Positions 39,661 to 55,934 of a stretch of DNA of 64,000 nucleotides are shown in pieces. The notes below the pieces were generated by a model. The model made no database searches. It saw nothing but the letters and a program-made list of their open reading frames with translations, and was not told the DNA's origin. Every line of letters begins with the position of its first letter. Within the stretch, counting starts at the first letter, position 1. The position numbers and the translations under genes are program-made. The stretch is from a virus, in IMG/VR virus record IMGVR_UViG_3300031111_000010, positions 1 to 64,000 of that record. One strand, 5' to 3'.

Positions 39661-40203
39661 TTAACCACCAGTTTCAGTGAAACTTGTTTCATGGTAGCTG
39701 TAAGTAAATGTTACATCAAACTGAGCGATTTCAGTGGTAGAGTAGTCCATTTGAATTTGTGCTACTTCTTTAGGCCATGCATCGTGAATTGTGAACTCAA
39801 GAATGACTTGACCTTCATAACCAATCATCTGTAATCTCTGGTCTGCCATAAACACATCATGAGTACTATAGAAGTTAGTCACTGGATCATGGCATAGATT
39901 TGACCATTCCTCAAATGTTTGTCTAATCTTAGCGTCTTTATCCACATTGAAAGTAATAACAACATCTGTATAGGTATGTTTACCCGGAAACTTCCAATCG
40001 AATCCTTGCCAGTTTAGAACCACTTCTTCAAGAGCAGTTGATGGCATCTGAGCAGTCTTTACTAAATAAATAGCATCCTCTTGACTAACACTCGCACCAA
40101 GACCTCCCGGCCATTGTGGTTGGTAGTAGAACAGGCTTGACTTTGCTCCATCTCCGAATCTTGCTTTAAATGCTTCTATATTAAATGATCTTACATCAGG
40201 CAT
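39661..40203 (-). CDS. Tail tube protein, T4 gp19-like, 180 aa
   Basis: Ends with the tube signature H-D-A-W-P-K-E-V-A-Q-I-Q-M-D-Y...Q-F-D-V-T-F-T-Y-S-Y, matching T4 gp19 (W-P-x-x-V-x-x-L/I-x-x-D...F-x-V-T-x-x-x-x-Y). Full-length. AAGGAGATAAGAAA ribosome site. Polymerises into the inner tail tube. Confidence 0.88.
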   Translation of the reverse strand: MPDVRSFNIEAFKARFGDGAKSSLFYYQPQWPGGLGASVSQEDAIYLVKTAQMPSTALEEVVLNWQGFDWKFPGKHTYTDVVITFNVDKDAKIRQTFEEWSNLCHDPVTNFYSTHDVFMADQRLQMIGYEGQVILEFTIHDAWPKEVAQIQMDYSTTEIAQFDVTFTYSYHETSFTETGG

Positions 40204-40575: not shown

Positions 40576-42414
40576 TTATGGTGTTGATGCTGCAACCAGT
40601 TCGGTAAAACTTGCTCCTGTCTTAGTAGCAATCAAGTTCAGCACGATAAATTCTGCTGCTCTTGTAGGTTTGATATAAATATCACACCAAAGTTCATTTC
40701 GATCAATTCTCTCTGCTGAGTTGTTTCTCTCATCACAGACAATTAGGTAATCGAAAATTCCCCTTCTTGCTACGATATCTCTCAAGAAAGGATCGATCAT
40801 ATTAATGATAGCCAATCTTGTGAAGGTATCATTTGGTTCAAACAGGAAGTACTTCAATGCGGTACTTACCGCTTTACCGATTATGATAAATAGTCTTCTC
40901 ACATTAACTCTATTAAATGCTGAAGATTTATCAAGCATGTTTTTCTGACCCCATACAACCTTTCCTTGACCCGGAAAGCTCACGATAGGATTCAGACCAT
41001 TCTTATAAAGAATATCTCTTTCACCCTTTACAGGATTCCAACCAAGTTTCCTTACATTATTTATTTGACCTCTATTCAAACCTGCTGGTGCAAACCATGC
41101 TTCTGCTACATCGTCAGTATTTGCGTAAATACCAGCAACATGTCCTGAAGCTGGTATCCATCTATGTTTAGCATTCCACTTATCATAGACTTCTAACCAG
41201 TTTGCATAAGTAGCAACATAACTTGTGTTGATATTCAAATTATATGTATCATGATTTCCAAATCTATAATCTCTACAATCAGTAGCTTCACTACCTTTAT
41301 TATTTACTACTAATGATTTAGGTACATCCAAAACACCAACTGCATCTGCTCTTGCAATACAGGTAGTATTAATATATTCCTTAACAGTAGTAGATTTACC
41401 AGAATCTATAAAGATATTAACATCAATTGATTCTGGATCAGCGTATAAATCAATTGCCTCCATAATATCAGCATCTTGTACAACATCACCGTTACCTCTT
41501 GCTCCACCACCAAGTGATTGATAATCTGCCATTCCCAATGTAGAGAAGTCTTTATTCTTAAATAATGCTGTAGTTGCTACTCTAATATAACTTGAGTTAT
41601 TATTAATCCAATTCTCAACGTAGATATTAGCACCAGTATCATCAACTTCATCAGGATCAGAACTTACAAGATGAACTTCTACTATTTCATAGGGAACCGG
41701 ATTCTTATTAATATTTTCTTGTTTTGCTCTCTTTACTAGAACAAGAAATTGTTTATCATTATCAAAAGAAGCATCTACTTCTTGATCTAAATCATCATAT
41801 AATGTTGCTGATAATCCAAGACTTGCTGCTGCTGTTCCTTGTCTTACACCATTATAAGCATTTCTACCTACAATTGCTATTTTAACATAGTTACCCCATT
41901 CCCCTCTACTTGAAGCAATAAATGCCATATCCTGACCATTCTCTGGTCTACCTGTATCGAATGTGGTATCCTCATCACCAAAGTAATCAGGGTCTTTTGA
42001 ATCAAAATCACTTAACTGATATCCGTTTGCTGTTGTATATGCTGTAAACACATCCCCTCCTGCTGAAACTGCTGTTGCCATTGTTCCATAACTACCCGCA
42101 AAGGTAGCTGATGGAGCTAATACTCTTGTACAGTACAAATTTTGACCGAATTGAAGAAATCCTGCTGCTGCCATGATATCTTCATATGATTGACCTCTCT
42201 TTGAGAAACCACCTGCTGCTACTGATAATGCTTCCTCTGGTCTACCAAAGATATCAACTAATTCATCAATATCGTTTACCAATTGTGTCTTTAACTCTGG
42301 ACCTTTCCATGTATCTCTAAGGGTGATAACACCGATAGATGTTGCTACTGCTGGAATGGTAGTAGTTAAATCAATTTCGTTTACGTCCACCAAAGGACTT
42401 AGATACATTGCCAT
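40576..42414 (-). CDS. Tail sheath protein, T4 gp18-like, 612 aa
   Basis: N-terminal Y-L-S-P-L-V-D-V-N-E-I-D and S-x-G-V-I-T-L-R-D-T-W-K-G-P-E domain, variable middle, and conserved C-terminal region (W-N-P-V-K-G-E-R-D-I-L-Y, F-L-F-E-P-N-D-T-F-T-R, I-K-P-T-R-A-A-E-F-I-V-L). Contractile sheath of a myovirus tail. ATG at 42414 follows GGAGGAAAAT; the upstream ATG contains that ribosome site and is rejected. Its first 110 residues are duplicated in the next upstream gene. Confidence 0.93.
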   Translation of the reverse strand: MAMYLSPLVDVNEIDLTTTIPAVATSIGVITLRDTWKGPELKTQLVNDIDELVDIFGRPEEALSVAAGGFSKRGQSYEDIMAAAGFLQFGQNLYCTRVLAPSATFAGSYGTMATAVSAGGDVFTAYTTANGYQLSDFDSKDPDYFGDEDTTFDTGRPENGQDMAFIASSRGEWGNYVKIAIVGRNAYNGVRQGTAAASLGLSATLYDDLDQEVDASFDNDKQFLVLVKRAKQENINKNPVPYEIVEVHLVSSDPDEVDDTGANIYVENWINNNSSYIRVATTALFKNKDFSTLGMADYQSLGGGARGNGDVVQDADIMEAIDLYADPESIDVNIFIDSGKSTTVKEYINTTCIARADAVGVLDVPKSLVVNNKGSEATDCRDYRFGNHDTYNLNINTSYVATYANWLEVYDKWNAKHRWIPASGHVAGIYANTDDVAEAWFAPAGLNRGQINNVRKLGWNPVKGERDILYKNGLNPIVSFPGQGKVVWGQKNMLDKSSAFNRVNVRRLFIIIGKAVSTALKYFLFEPNDTFTRLAIINMIDPFLRDIVARRGIFDYLIVCDERNNSAERIDRNELWCDIYIKPTRAAEFIVLNLIATKTGASFTELVAASTP

Positions 42415-42464
42415 ATTTTCCTCCATTTTCAGATATTAATCTGAGCTTTTCTATCCTTCATATA

Positions 42465-42472
42465 TATTTATA
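42465..42472 (-). promoter_or_regulatory. T4-type late promoter TATAAATA
   Basis: Exact octamer on the minus strand, about 50 bases upstream of the sheath start. Confidence 0.75.
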
Positions 42473-42498
42473 TTTTTTAAACTTTTTTTTCAGTTATG

Positions 42499-43377
42499 TT
42501 ATGCTGGTAGTACTGACGATTCACTTGAACTTGAGCTTAATGAACTTGAACTTAAAGAACCACAAACCAAGAACTCAATATTTGTTACACTAAATGATGT
42601 ACTATCAGCATAATTAGTAAATGTTAATAGAGTTAAGTCATTTGAAGTCCATTCAATATCAAATGTTCCCATACCAGAAGGAGTAACAGTACCATATTCA
42701 CCAGCAGAAACATTAGTTGATAAAAGTTCATTAGTTGGAAAATCAAAAGAACGTAATTCCATTGTTAGTGGAATATCCGGTGTCCATGTAACTCTTATTT
42801 TACTAGGTCTAAATCCAGATGCCCATGGCGATGGCTCAGTCAATGGAGCTAAACCAACACCCGGATAAGCGAAAGTAACACTATCCCATTGTTCTAATTC
42901 AGAATTCCATGTTGCTCCCCCTTCAAGATCCTCCCATATTGTATTATCAAAATAGGTTTGCCAAGTAGGAGGACCAAATGGACAAGATGAACTACTGCTA
43001 TTACTAGTCGAACTACTGCTATTGCTTCCCCCTAATTCTTCTACTGTTCCATAACAACCTGCAAAGGTAGCACTTGGTGCGAGTACTCTTGTACAATATA
43101 AATTCTGTCCAAATTGTAAGAAACCAGCAGCAGATAGTAAATCTTCATATGATTGACCTCTCTTTGAAAATCCGTTTGCTGATACTGATAATGCTTCCTC
43201 TGGTCTACCAAAAGTATCTATCAATTCATCAATGGAATTTACTAATTGAACTTTTAATTCCGGTCCTTTCCATGTATCCCTTAATATAATAACTCCTATT
43301 GACGTAGCAACAGCAGGTATTGTTGTGCTTAAATCAATTTCATTTACATCTACAAGGGGTGATAAATACATTGTCAT
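42499..43377 (-). CDS. Sheath N-terminus fused to a lectin-like domain, 292 aa
   Basis: Residues 1-113 are nearly the same as the sheath N-terminus (M-x-M-Y-L-S-P-L-V-D-V-N-E-I-D-L through A-P-S-A-T-F-A-G), with high nucleotide similarity. A Ser/Asn linker (117-135), a jelly-roll-like domain (136-270) and a poly-Ser tail follow. The sheath middle and C-terminal domains are gone. Inference: it inserts into the sheath or collar lattice and displays the lectin. AGGAGAATAAT ribosome site. Confidence 0.85.
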   Translation of the reverse strand: MTMYLSPLVDVNEIDLSTTIPAVATSIGVIILRDTWKGPELKVQLVNSIDELIDTFGRPEEALSVSANGFSKRGQSYEDLLSAAGFLQFGQNLYCTRVLAPSATFAGCYGTVEELGGSNSSSSTSNSSSSSCPFGPPTWQTYFDNTIWEDLEGGATWNSELEQWDSVTFAYPGVGLAPLTEPSPWASGFRPSKIRVTWTPDIPLTMELRSFDFPTNELLSTNVSAGEYGTVTPSGMGTFDIEWTSNDLTLLTFTNYADSTSFSVTNIEFLVCGSLSSSSLSSSSSESSVLPA

Positions 43378-43380
43378 ATT
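43022..43380 (-). repeat. Duplicated sheath 5' end (partner at 42060-42420)
   Basis: About 360 bp shared with the sheath gene, including long identical runs such as TCATATGATTGACCTCTCTT. Indicates a fairly recent tandem duplication. Confidence 0.85.
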
Positions 43381-43407: not shown

Positions 43408-43415
43408 TATTTATA
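43408..43415 (-). promoter_or_regulatory. T4-type late promoter TATAAATA
   Basis: Exact octamer on the minus strand overlapping the stop of the upstream adhesin gene; drives the sheath-lectin fusion. Confidence 0.7.
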
Positions 43416-50806: not shown

Positions 50807-53168
50807 CTGAACTTGAACTTGAACTTGAACTACTTCCTTCTGTTAATAGTATATTTTTCAATACTGCATTTGTAGCTTTTAACCATGCAGCAGATCGGGC
50901 AATATTAGAAATACGAACTTCCTCTACTTCTCCTGCTCTATATCCAATTGTTGAGTCTGGTGTTCCACCAATACCAATGGTATCAATACCTGTAGGCCAA
51001 GCATCTCCACCAGTATCCTCTTGCTCTGTTCCTCCATTAGTATATAATTTTCTACTCGTAGAAGTAACTAACGCTGAAGCTAAATAAGCAAATTCTCCTG
51101 CATCAAGACTTACTGTTCCATTTAAAAGAGTAGTACCAGTCGAGTAAAAATTTAATCTTCCAATGTTTCCATACATATTAAGTAATACCATTTGATCTGG
51201 TTCACTAACATCTCCAATTCCAACTGACGGATTGTTATTTGATGCTGCTGTAATAGTAGCACGACCAGCACATTCTAAGGTAGCAGGGTAATCTGTTAAA
51301 CCAGAAACACTTGCAGTAACAATATCGTTGTTACCATCAAAATCTATTGCTTTACCAAATACTCCATCTATCAAATCATCTGAAGTCATTGATCCATTAA
51401 ATGATCCATTATGTAAATTAGAAGTACTATCTAATAATGTTCCACCAGTTGGATTTTGACTCATATGATATACAGCTACAAAGTTCTCATCCCATACTGT
51501 CTGTGCAGCACTTGTACCCGTAGAACCAATATAAGAATTATTACTATTATATTCTAATGTCAGTACTGTATCTCTGTTTGCTGGTATCCAAGGAACTTTA
51601 GTCCATATTGTTCCAGATGTTTCCCATGTATCTACTTCAGTATAAAGTTCATTACCACCTGATACAGTAACATGTAAATTCTCATATGAATTAGCACTTG
51701 TAAAATCAGATGGAAGTATTATACCTACTGGAAAATCTATTAAGTTCTCATCAATCTTACTACTATCTATTGTGTAATATAGTGGTGGTGTAGTACTACT
51801 TGAACTTGAACTTGAAGTAGAAGAACTTGAACTACTTCCTTCTGTTAATAGTATATTTTTCAATACTGCATTTGTAGCTTTTAACCATGCTGATGATCTT
51901 TGTATATTAGAAACTCTTACTTCTCCTATTTGACAATTTAGATAATCAACAGAGAAATAATTATCTGGTACTTTCGCTAATAATGGAGGACTAAAATCAG
52001 CAGTTCCATTAGGAGCAGAGATAGAATCTGTGTCATCATTTTTGTATATATTAAAAGTACCATTTACTTCATATGATGCAGCAAAGTATTCAAATACATC
52101 AAGATTGACAGGACTAATAGTTAAAATTACTTCATTACCATCTACACCAAATCTATAATCCCATGAACTACCATTATTGAAATTATAAATTCTAAGTCTA
52201 TCTGAAAAATCTGATCTATCGGAAACAAAAATAGGAGCATAATTATTACTACCACCTAAAACATCTATTAAAGTAAATACTTCAACTGTTCCTATGGTAT
52301 TATCCATTACATCTGGCATACTTATATAATCATTACTACCATCAAAATCTATTGCTTTACCAAATACTCCATCTACTAAATCACCAGAAGTCATAGAACC
52401 ATGGGTATCACCATGATTTCCATTAACTGTGGAATCTAAAATTGTATCTGTTCCATCGGTTGGGTCTTGACTCATATGATATACAGCTACAAAGTTCTCA
52501 TTCCATACATTCTGTGCAGCAACTTCTCCTGTTTGACTTATATTCCAAGGAACAATAACATCACAAGAATTTATAGCAAAATTATCAAAGGTATAAACTA
52601 ATGGTGTTGCTGAAGTAGAATTACGATATGCCATAAATCCTACATAAACATCGTCTTCTATCCAAGTATGTGCTGAACCTATTTGTGACCATGAACCATC
52701 TTCTTCATTTTTATAATAAGCTGATACTTGATTTCCTACTCGTTTAATTCTAAATTTATTAGTATAAGGATTCGATTTGCTACTTATATTAACTTCATCC
52801 CAAGAATCATTACTACCAGCATCATCATATCTGAAATAAGCATAGGGGGTTCCCGATCTATTTATTAGTCCTACAAAACCCCATTCAGAAGTATTATTGT
52901 CTTTATTCGGAGAAATATAAACTCCACCTTGTTGAATACTTACTACTTGACCTGTAACAGTTACAAAGTCAAACTCTATTTCAAAATCACCTTTAATTAT
53001 TCTATTGAGAGTTTTATAATGATTTCCGCTATTACCTGATGAAATGGTCATTTGTGCTTCATTATCATCTATAACAGTAGAACCTGTTCCACTATTACCA
53101 GCAGCATCATACCACCATTCTTTTGAGAAATCATCTCCATTTGTTCCTGTAAAATCATCAATTATCAT
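50802..53168 (-). CDS. Adhesin C, unanchored second half, 788 aa
   Basis: Begins directly in a ConA-like domain (I-I-D-D-F-T-G-T-N-G-D-D-F) with no tube-like anchor. Order: ConA (1-205), LamG (215-420), short poly-Ser, DUF2341 (438-540), LamG (545-765), poly-Ser end. Its ATG overlaps the stop of the 624-aa gene (ATGA) behind AAAGGA. In adhesin B the same junction (Y-E-R-V-I-T-S-P-E-V-F-D-D-F-T-G) is continuous, so this looks like a gene split. Confidence 0.78.
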   Translation of the reverse strand: MIIDDFTGTNGDDFSKEWWYDAAGNSGTGSTVIDDNEAQMTISSGNSGNHYKTLNRIIKGDFEIEFDFVTVTGQVVSIQQGGVYISPNKDNNTSEWGFVGLINRSGTPYAYFRYDDAGSNDSWDEVNISSKSNPYTNKFRIKRVGNQVSAYYKNEEDGSWSQIGSAHTWIEDDVYVGFMAYRNSTSATPLVYTFDNFAINSCDVIVPWNISQTGEVAAQNVWNENFVAVYHMSQDPTDGTDTILDSTVNGNHGDTHGSMTSGDLVDGVFGKAIDFDGSNDYISMPDVMDNTIGTVEVFTLIDVLGGSNNYAPIFVSDRSDFSDRLRIYNFNNGSSWDYRFGVDGNEVILTISPVNLDVFEYFAASYEVNGTFNIYKNDDTDSISAPNGTADFSPPLLAKVPDNYFSVDYLNCQIGEVRVSNIQRSSAWLKATNAVLKNILLTEGSSSSSSTSSSSSSSTTPPLYYTIDSSKIDENLIDFPVGIILPSDFTSANSYENLHVTVSGGNELYTEVDTWETSGTIWTKVPWIPANRDTVLTLEYNSNNSYIGSTGTSAAQTVWDENFVAVYHMSQNPTGGTLLDSTSNLHNGSFNGSMTSDDLIDGVFGKAIDFDGNNDIVTASVSGLTDYPATLECAGRATITAASNNNPSVGIGDVSEPDQMVLLNMYGNIGRLNFYSTGTTLLNGTVSLDAGEFAYLASALVTSTSRKLYTNGGTEQEDTGGDAWPTGIDTIGIGGTPDSTIGYRAGEVEEVRISNIARSAAWLKATNAVLKNILLTEGSSSSSSSSSG
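50833..50890 (-). repeat. Module-border repeat, copy 2
   Basis: Same 50-60 bp border element as at 47541, at the 3' end of adhesin C. Confidence 0.75.
51836..51893 (-). repeat. Module-border repeat, copy 3
   Basis: Same border element inside adhesin C, between its two module series. Confidence 0.75.
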
Positions 53169-55039
53169 TCGGTTATTTCCTTTGAATAATTATTGCTACC
53201 ATATTCCAATTTCAATACTGTATCACTTGCAGATGGAATAAATGGTACTTTAGTCCAAATTACTGCTCTATCATTAGAAGGTTCCCATACATCTACTTCA
53301 GTATAAAGTTCTGTATTACCACCTGACACTGTAACATGTAGATTTTGCCATCCAGAAGTAGGTTGACTTGAAATAAATCCTGTACCTGAAACATTAATAC
53401 CTACTGGAAAATTTGTTAAGTTCTCATCAATTTTACTACTATCTATTGTATAGTAAAGTGTTGATATAGTAGAAGTAGAAGCAGAACTTACACTTGAACT
53501 TGAAGATTCTGAGCTTGAACTACTCACTGAACTTGAAGATTCTGAGCTTGAACTACTTACTGAACTTGAAGATTCTGAGCTTGAACTTGAATAACTTGAA
53601 CTTGAATAACTTGAACTTGAACTTGAGCTTGAAAGAGAACTTGAAGATTCACTTGAGCTTGAACTTGAGCTTGAACTTGAAAGAGAACTTGAAGATTCAC
53701 TTGAGCTTGAACTTGAAAGAGAACTTGAAGATTCACTTGAGCTTGAACTTGAAAGAGAACTTGAAGATTCACTTGAGCTTGATTGACTTGAGCTTGAAAT
53801 ATTATAATATTCTATTTCACAAGGATAAATTAAAACACCACCACCTTCTGTTGTTGATGTTGCTCCCCACTTATTATCACCACCATAATAACGACTTGTA
53901 TCATTTCTTAATTTAAACCATCTTGCAGTCTGTGGTGTATCGAAGTCTACTCTAAATGCAAATTCATATCCAGTTCCTAAAACTGAAGGTGAATGAATTG
54001 GTGGTTTAATCCATGTATCAATCCATTCCCATGTTATTCCATCATCTGATTTATATGCACCAACTACTCCACTATCATTATCAACCCATGCATCATAAAT
54101 ACGACTTGATGATGATGTTCTAAACCAGAAAATAATACCATTGATTGTCATTGGTTCTGTTGTAGCCACCCAAAATGACGTATTATAACCAACATAATCA
54201 TTATCTGCTACTGCATATATATTACCATCTATTAGTCCGGGATATGATGCTGAGTTTTCTGTTACAAGAGGATTAGGATTCCATCCACTCCATGCACCTA
54301 CAAGATACGTCGAAGAAGAACTTGATTTTGATGAACTTGATTTTGATGAACTTGAGCTTGAACTTGAAAGAGAACTTGAAGATTCACTTGAGCTTGAACT
54401 TGAGCTTGAAGAACTCAGGCTTGAACTTGAGCTTGAAGAACTCAGGCTTGAACTTGATGATGATGTCCAAGATTTAGAAGAAGAAGATCGAGAAGAAGAA
54501 CTAAATTCAGCAGTCCAAGCTGTACTTCTCACATAGAAATAATCATATTCAAAGGTGACCATACTTTCTAATACAATATCACCTTCTCTTTGTGACATTC
54601 CAATTTCTGCTAACTGAGTAGGCCAAATATCAACAAACACTATTTCCATAACAGGTTTTTTATAGTTGTTCGTAATTATCATTGATGCATCAACTGAATA
54701 TTCTTTATGATATTCAGCTATTTTATCACAATTATTATTGATATAACTCATCCACCTGAATAATAAACTCCAATTATCCAATCGTGAATCAACAACAAAG
54801 TTAACCATCCAACTTTCAAATTCTAATGGGTTTAAGTCATACTTGACTTTATTACCTTGCCAACTTATCTCATTAACCCCTATATTCAAGGATGGAATAA
54901 CAGCAGAGAAGATATTCATTACGAAAGGATTGTTAGACGCAATACTACTTTCAGTTGGTATCAGGGGAAATACCAACTGAAAATTTGTAGGTGTGGCCTT
55001 GTCTATATTATTAAGGTTGGATGTATTGCATACTATCAT
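53165..55039 (-). CDS. Tube-fold-anchored adhesin D (first half), 624 aa
   Basis: Residues 1-179: tail-tube-like domain (V-D-I-W-P-T-Q-L-A-E-I-G-M-S-Q, F-E-Y-D-Y-F-Y-V). 180-245: poly-Ser. About 246-425: discoidin-like (F5/8 C-type) domain with P-G-L-I-D-G-N and A-R-W-F-K-L-R. 430-525: long poly-Ser with E/Y/L interruptions. 530-624: DUF2341, cut short at the stop. Adhesin C continues the architecture. Start is leaderless-type. Confidence 0.8.
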   Translation of the reverse strand: MIVCNTSNLNNIDKATPTNFQLVFPLIPTESSIASNNPFVMNIFSAVIPSLNIGVNEISWQGNKVKYDLNPLEFESWMVNFVVDSRLDNWSLLFRWMSYINNNCDKIAEYHKEYSVDASMIITNNYKKPVMEIVFVDIWPTQLAEIGMSQREGDIVLESMVTFEYDYFYVRSTAWTAEFSSSSRSSSSKSWTSSSSSSLSSSSSSSSLSSSSSSSSSSESSSSLSSSSSSSSKSSSSKSSSSSTYLVGAWSGWNPNPLVTENSASYPGLIDGNIYAVADNDYVGYNTSFWVATTEPMTINGIIFWFRTSSSSRIYDAWVDNDSGVVGAYKSDDGITWEWIDTWIKPPIHSPSVLGTGYEFAFRVDFDTPQTARWFKLRNDTSRYYGGDNKWGATSTTEGGGVLIYPCEIEYYNISSSSQSSSSESSSSLSSSSSSESSSSLSSSSSSESSSSLSSSSSSSSSSESSSSLSSSSSSSSYSSSSYSSSSSESSSSVSSSSSESSSSVSSSSSESSSSSVSSASTSTISTLYYTIDSSKIDENLTNFPVGINVSGTGFISSQPTSGWQNLHVTVSGGNTELYTEVDVWEPSNDRAVIWTKVPFIPSASDTVLKLEYGSNNYSKEITE

Positions 55040-55076: not shown

Positions 55077-55934
55077 TTACGGTGTGATTTTTCTCACTCC
55101 ATTAGGAATATATGAACCACTTGTACTTCCATATGGTTCAAATAAATTATATTTTATCATCGCATCATCTACTGTACCACCTGATGGTATACTTCCTTTA
55201 ATTTCATATGTAATACCTCTTGATGCTGGTGTTCCTGATGCACCAGAAGTAAAGGTTGATCCAGTATCACCTTGATTAACATATGTTCTAAAGGATTGAG
55301 CATCAGTAAAATAACTACCATAAATTTTTTGAATCAAACCAACATCTGATGATGGTTTAAAGAACCAAGTCTGAACTTCAAAATCCAATGTATAGTTAAT
55401 TACTCTATACTCAAGGTCTGCCATTTCATGTGATATTTCTGGTGTAGCTGATCTAAAGATAATCTTAGTATCAAATGCTATATCAAGATCATCTATATAA
55501 ATTCTCACAAAGATATGTGGACAAAAGAATGGTAAGATTTGTTCCATTATCTGATCTATGTCAGTCATATGCAATGCCCATATATTCATTGTGAAGGTAA
55601 GGTTATATGGACATGGATGGAGAAATTGTGATACTGATCCTTGTACTATATTATCACAGTTAGCAGTAAAGGCATGAAAACTGTTTACCTTTCTATCAGC
55701 AGCATAATCGATAGCACTAATATATGCTGTGATCATAGGCAACATTTCATCATCTTTTCTCTCATCAAACCAGTAGTATACTTTTTCTTTCACAGAATGT
55801 TTGATAGGAACTTTTATCCATCTATCAATAGTTCTTCCATCATCTGAATATCTTGCAATTTTTATATCGTTAAAAGCGTCAAAAAATTGTATAATCGTTT
55901 TTCTGAACACATTAAAAAAGAAATATGTTTTCAT
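55077..55934 (-). CDS. Tail terminator/completion protein, T4 gp15-like, 285 aa
   Basis: I-K-V-P-I-K-H-S-V-K-E-K (residues 42-53), M-E-Q-I-L-P-F-F-C-P-H and Y-T-L-D-F-E-V-Q-T-W-F-F-K-P parallel T4 gp15 (I-R-V-P-I-T-Y-A-S-K-E, V-E-Q-I-L-P-Y-F-Q-P-H, W-S-L-T-F-E-V-N-G-W-M-Y-P). Caps the tail for joining to the neck. Gly/Ser-rich C-terminal extension. ATGA overlap upstream. Confidence 0.88.
   Translation of the reverse strand: MKTYFFFNVFRKTIIQFFDAFNDIKIARYSDDGRTIDRWIKVPIKHSVKEKVYYWFDERKDDEMLPMITAYISAIDYAADRKVNSFHAFTANCDNIVQGSVSQFLHPCPYNLTFTMNIWALHMTDIDQIMEQILPFFCPHIFVRIYIDDLDIAFDTKIIFRSATPEISHEMADLEYRVINYTLDFEVQTWFFKPSSDVGLIQKIYGSYFTDAQSFRTYVNQGDTGSTFTSGASGTPASRGITYEIKGSIPSGGTVDDAMIKYNLFEPYGSTSGSYIPNGVRKITP

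Follow-up and report, generated by a model that had tools for sequence, protein, structure and literature searches.

A truncated sheath protein with a carbohydrate-binding-like domain in a T4-like phage: a candidate half of a split contractile tail sheath

Binding-domain display on phage tails is known. To our knowledge, no natural split contractile sheath has been described; a contractile sheath functions only as long as its lattice stays tightly interlocked. Among papers on sheath fusions, sheath paralogues or internal starts in a limited open-access literature, no title or abstract was found to describe a split sheath protomer. Outer domains of sheath proteins, often Ig-like, are known as insertions located away from the tube (PMC9230969). 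In T4 gp18, domain I comprises residues 98-188, domain II residues 88-97 and 189-345, and domain III residues 24-87 and 346-510; domain I juts out and makes no inter-subunit contacts (PMC3004832). The tail and neck of the lactococcal 936 phages bear CBMs (TpeX, NPS), and SPP1 has a tail-tube extension; these arise through a programmed frameshift in the tube-protein gene of a siphophage, or take the form of a neck fibre (PMC6669499). Two-polypeptide phage endolysins are made using in-frame internal starts, and the C-terminal isoform assembles with another chain (PMC9430671).

The DNA analyzed here, termed the window, is a 64-kb stretch of an 81,176-base virus record from a T4-like phage with a contractile tail. 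On the minus strand, its tail block runs from neck proteins through gp15, three gp3-like carriers, a sheath fusion, the sheath and the tube to a baseplate protein (Table 1). The 113 sheath residues of the fusion and its full-length neighbour belong to the family of T4 gp18 and T4-like sheaths (PMC9230969, PMC3004832). In contrast to the outer-domain insertions of those sheaths, the fusion chain ends after its domain, and the remaining sheath is a separate polypeptide in relatives. As in the 936 phages and SPP1, a structural tail protein would bear a CBM or Ig-like domain on some copies, aiding binding (PMC6669499); unlike them, the window features a separate gene, a truncated sheath N-terminus and a contractile tail. 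A programmed frameshift extension of the SPP1/936 type was not found, as the fusion is encoded by an intact ORF of its own that has a start codon, a Shine-Dalgarno (SD) sequence and a promoter box. The resemblance to the endolysins (PMC9430671) lies in one gene with an internal SD and an in-frame start, as proposed below for the window sheath; however, the protein class is different, and the partner of the proposed isoform would be encoded by a different gene.

Table 1. Positions of the features discussed (window coordinates unless a contig is named)
Feature	Position	Strand	Remarks
Tail tube (gp19)	39661..40203	-	PF06841, E 2.5e-7; phrog_45
Full-length tail sheath gene	40576..42414	-	612 aa from second Met; ORF opens at 42426
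Proposed C-only sheath chain	40576..42051	-	491 aa from internal GTG (42049-42051)
Internal AGGAGG in sheath gene	42056..42061	-	Shine-Dalgarno
Sheath-leader hairpin	42429..42444	-	Common to other full-length sheath genes and the L021 N-piece
Sheath-gene TATAAATA box	42465..42472	-
Fusion gene	42499..43377	-	Sheath N-terminus, Ser linker, CBM-like domain, Ser tail
Fusion residues 132-275, CBM-like domain	42553..42984	-	Putative beta-sandwich; AF2 model, Foldseek
Fusion residues 114-131, Ser-rich linker	42985..43038	-	From sequence
Fusion residues 1-113, sheath N-terminal copy	43039..43377	-	phrog_23, E 4.8e-9
Fusion-gene TATAAATA box	43408..43415	-	T4-late-type promoter box, exact match
gp3-like carrier, 818 aa	43411..45867	-	Ser linkers, LamG-like domain
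gp3-like carrier, 1614 aa	45949..50793	-	Ser linkers, LamG-like and DUF2341 domains
LamG/DUF2341 protein, 788 aa	50802..53168	-	Out-of-frame continuation of 53165-55039
gp3-like carrier, 624 aa	53165..55039	-	Very Ser-rich
gp15 sheath terminator/stabiliser	55077..55934	-	PF16724, E 3.4e-43
L004 C-only sheath gene	566-2047 (L004)		493 aa, own ATG; lacks first ~117 sheath residues

The fusion gene and the full-length sheath gene

The full-length sheath gene was identified by the Pfam families Phage_sheath_1 and Phage_sheath_1C, by phrog_23 (E 1.2e-97) and by superposition of its model on T4 gp18M (3foa; Z 29.6, 2.8 Å over 351 residues). The nearest sheaths of isolate phages were less than 60% identical to it; identities were about 29-43% among the best matches listed, which include Stenotrophomonas phage DLP_6, Pelagibacter HTVC008M and Methylophilales Melnitz. 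In a scan of genome contigs, the one relative obtained was a contig assigned to a Candidatus Izimaplasma MAG (L195, JRFF01000034.1), in which a related sheath N-terminus with 53% identity lies at 178-456; it is a weak hint as to the hosts of the wider phage group.

Alignment of the two window copies bore out the initial annotation in its description of a 292-aa protein with 113 sheath residues (98 of them identical), followed by a linker and a further domain. The linker is Ser-rich, the domain is beta-rich, and a short Ser tail forms the C-terminal end. The range first assigned, 42060-43380, begins within the sheath gene and also covers its initial ~120 codons; the fusion ORF itself spans 42499-43377. 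The sheath share of the fusion is the first fifth of the tail-sheath protein. No Pfam match to the fusion was obtained, so the conserved Phage_sheath_1 and Phage_sheath_1C regions are missing, and sheath homology stops at residue ~113; judged by these searches, the fusion is an incomplete sheath protein. Its matches in the isolate phage collection were sheath proteins only (eleven, all under 60% identity, two of them from the same phage and one in an unannotated record), with no fusion among them.

The DNA copy had been described as very similar and the event, consequently, as recent. This dating has to be reversed. Nucleotide identity between fusion and sheath is 76%, falling to 52% at third codon positions, and the NG86 method gave dN of about 0.118 (0.115-0.118), dS of about 1.7 (1.65-1.71) and dN/dS of about 0.07. 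Because synonymous sites are near saturation, the duplication is not recent. On these distances, the fusion N-terminus is an old duplicate whose protein similarity has been maintained by purifying selection. A late promoter belonging to the fusion itself, also proposed at the outset, is plausible: an exact TATAAATA box is found 38 nt upstream. Of the 10 boxes of this kind counted at 29000-62000 on the same strand, 6 are located no more than 100 nt upstream of a gene start, compared with the 6.7% of the region that such positions cover (p = 1.5e-5).

A small hairpin is conserved between the promoter box and the SD in the sheath leaders of the window and of the related contigs L004, L005, L008, L009, L010, L011 and L021. 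Paired changes were observed in it (GAT/ATC, GGT/ACC, TTTAGG/CCTAAA), and the predicted fold of L008 differs. It may have a role in regulating the sheath gene.

The displayed domain and the neighbouring carriers

An AF2 model of the fusion alone was based on six sequences only and had a mean pLDDT of 45 (26-49 in the sheath part, about 42-71 in the binding-like domain); for both reasons it furnishes no evidence on folding. When residues 132-275 of this model (pLDDT 42-71) were compared using Foldseek, the best matches were CBM86, CBM29, CBM65 and other CBMs, with E-values of 1.7e-3 or weaker. The displayed domain was assigned to no Pfam family, and a search of IMG/VR for relatives of this putative lectin gave no confirmed match. 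A carbohydrate-binding role of the domain is likely.

T4 gp3 has 176 aa and no cargo, whereas in the three gp3-like paralogues of the window, Ser linkers and LamG-like domains add as much as ~1440 aa. A profile of the N-terminal ~170 aa (A4, with the three window copies included) matched PDB 9mkb_AC (gp3) with an E-value of 6e-20, and matched gp54 and gp19 far more weakly (4e-5 and 5.6e-4, respectively). The N-terminus of the 1614-aa protein was also used in tblastn, and it matched isolates annotated as tail tube terminator or tail completion. An assignment of these carriers as gp19 tube paralogues (PHROG “tail tube”) was ruled out by the profile search, which favoured gp3. By homology, each of the three large genes upstream encodes a paralogue of the tail-tube terminator gp3 to which LamG-like domains are attached. 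Most relatives have a bare gp3 here, between gp15 and the sheath; extended gp3 is found in L008, L021 and L023. In two contigs, gp15 has a C-terminal extension in place of an extended gp3 (L107 4056-5642, 297 aa; L111 6303-8561, 519 aa), and gp15 is, as judged from these reading frames, a third proximal-tail protein used as a carrier.

All three gp3 carriers start without an evident SD, a few bases after TATAAATA-like boxes, which suggests that their mRNAs are late and near-leaderless. At 53165-53168, the end of the 624-aa carrier overlaps the start of the 788-aa ORF (ATGA) in a different frame; when the pair is compared with the 1614-aa protein next to it, a single gene with a frameshift break, stop-start reinitiation or an assembly error seems indicated.

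The surroundings of the fusion bear on whether its domain acts on the particle at all. It could act off it, the protein being a free decoy (secreted or on the host surface) or a regulator of sheath assembly, with the N-terminal piece competing for sheath contacts or being released at lysis. Such a fragment of an assembling protein could be a negative effector. However, the fusion has a late-promoter box and is located among tail genes, and Ser-linked binding domains also occur on the gp3 and gp15 paralogues of this gene block, which argues for display on the particle; an off-particle role is thus improbable.

Break point and sheath genes in relatives

The sheath profile was aligned with T4 gp18, placing sheath position ~105 at gp18 ~99, and superposition of the sheath model on gp18PR, the protease-resistant fragment, starts at model residue 101, equivalent to gp18 87. 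The break in the fusion falls at gp18 ~95-100, i.e. at the start of domain I, and residues 1-113 cover the arm, the initial stretch of domain III and the opening strand of domain II. Since the chain is replaced near the entry to the outermost domain, the Ser linker and binding domain would face outward.

Scans of viral contigs yielded 127 non-redundant full-length sheath genes, the window's included. Fusions of the same design were present in five related contig groups (the window; L008; L004; L011/L012/L086; L021). The copies in relatives, found in L004 (two), L008, L011/L012 and L021 (with a Ser tail only), depart from the sheath at the same place as the window fusion, and break point and gene order are the same across contigs from different samples. 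Because the groups are related, they do not represent five independent events.

In three of the groups (L004, L011/L012/L086 and L021), the fusions are accompanied by C-only sheath genes having their own ATG and a ribosome-binding-type leader. Only L004 shows such a gene whole, as the L021, L086 and L011 contigs cut it; L086 is identical to the C-only end of L011 where they overlap. None of the 75 fusion-free contigs with a complete gp3-to-sheath interval contained a C-only gene. In the 81-kb window record, neither a C-only gene nor a second full sheath was found; as the record is a fragment, a C-only gene may be located outside it. In L021, the N-piece is preceded by the usual sheath leader (promoter box, hairpin and GGAGG), and the C-only gene follows 33 nt after it with its own AGGAG. 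No full-length sheath is in view on this contig, whose end falls inside the C-only gene; if none lies beyond that end, the main sheath of L021 may be wholly two-chain.

Two further contigs were considered and rejected: L106, a C-only candidate, has a full sheath with a TTG start, and L061, a split-sheath candidate, has 14 stops in 600 codons of the sheath region that are cut to 2 when TGA is read as Trp, which suggests a TGA-recoded phage. The sheath frame of L245 is broken up much like that of L061.

Comparison of the L004 and L086 C-only chains gave dN of 0.043, dS of 0.44 and dN/dS of ~0.10; for N and C halves, dN/dS was about 0.07-0.16. On these ratios, the C-only sheath chains are under purifying selection. 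Synonymous distances of the N and C pieces to their own full-length sheath were 0.66 and 0.78 in L004, and 0.92 and 0.89 in L011. Being comparable within each pair, they fit a single duplicated sheath gene cut in two. The same pieces might instead be a sequence reservoir or decaying copies, i.e. recombination donors, leftovers with no protein role or assembly errors at Ser-rich repeats. The contigs are metagenomic, such repeats can cause misassembly, and one gp3 carrier of the window is split over two frames. However, the constancy of break point and gene order between samples, the intact ORFs with ribosome-binding-type leaders and the selection on both halves render this explanation highly improbable.

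Three observations back the initial idea of a sheath fragment turned into a carrier: the genes of relatives, a break located where gp18 domain I starts, and the CBM-like Foldseek matches. A function of the fusion as a tail-display carrier is, from the sequences, very probable.

A candidate internal start and a two-chain protomer

Neither the window nor L008 has a separate C-only gene in view. In both sheath genes, an in-frame AGGAGG-N4-GTG is found at the position of the C-only start (sheath residue ~122), and the GTG aligns with the starts of the C-only genes of L004, L086 and L021. Past the start region, only these 2 of the 127 sheath genes have a GGAGG that is followed after 3-9 nt by a start codon in frame; the other 125 have no such internal SD-start. 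AGGAGG has two occurrences on the minus strand of the window, and GTG accounts for 7.7% of Val codons in structural genes. The window and L008 sheaths are related (86% aa identity), and their two internal starts are therefore not independent cases. Between them, neighbouring codons differ and an indel is present, and the AGGAGG-N4-GTG motif is retained. The sister contig L010 has a similarly long loop, no fusion and no internal SD-GTG. The idea of an internal start arose from these same data and was not predicted in advance. The site combines a strong SD with a suitably spaced start in frame and is a candidate translation start; that the codon is a GTG and the spacing 4 nt is a point against it. 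All five fusion groups have a possible source of a C-only chain, be it a separate gene or an internal start.

The reading we favour, with a probability of about 0.58, is a sheath protomer of two chains, the fusion and a C-only sheath, with the domain displayed outside the tail. Residues 1-113 of the fusion would supply the N-terminal arm, the first domain III segment and the first domain II strand. Where the chain would enter the outward-facing domain I, the Ser linker and the carbohydrate-binding-like beta-sandwich would stand instead, and the remainder of the protomer, from residue ~122, would be a separate C-only chain, produced from its own gene in relatives and putatively from the internal SD and GTG here. 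The two halves would associate non-covalently and join the sheath lattice beside full-length sheath, placing the domain on the tail exterior. Two-chain protomers would probably be present at low copy number, and the displayed domains would afford weak multivalent binding to a surface glycan.

Alternatively, the fusion could be a stand-alone plug, its N-terminal arm binding the end of the sheath lattice with no C-only partner, for example in the last ring beneath gp15/gp3 with the domain at the neck; the internal SD would then be a coincidence or a minor translation signal. Consistent with this, the genes for the adjoining carriers encode gp3 paralogues, and gp15 is extended in some relatives; in T4, both proteins form neck-proximal rings (PMC3004832). 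The window record also shows no C-only gene. However, C-only genes sit alongside fusions in 3 of the 5 groups and were seen in 0 of the 75 fusion-free contigs, and the copied segment, extending into domain III and a strand of domain II, is more than an arm needs. We consider a plug rather unlikely.

The two-chain protomer would represent a natural split contractile sheath, in which the N half is equipped with a binding domain or a Ser tail, while the C half comes from a separate gene or internal initiation; to this proposition we give about an even chance. Were it true, a contractile sheath would tolerate two-chain protomers whose chains are divided between domains II and I, and the second chain would be supplied in two genetic forms (separate gene and internal start) among related phages. 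How partial sheath decoration arises would become directly testable. Such a sheath would also offer a natural blueprint for cargo display on contractile tails at controlled stoichiometry, i.e. a means of decorating a contractile tail without changing every subunit. Together, gp3, gp15 and the sheath appear as proximal-tail carriers of adhesin-like domains in this environmental phage group.
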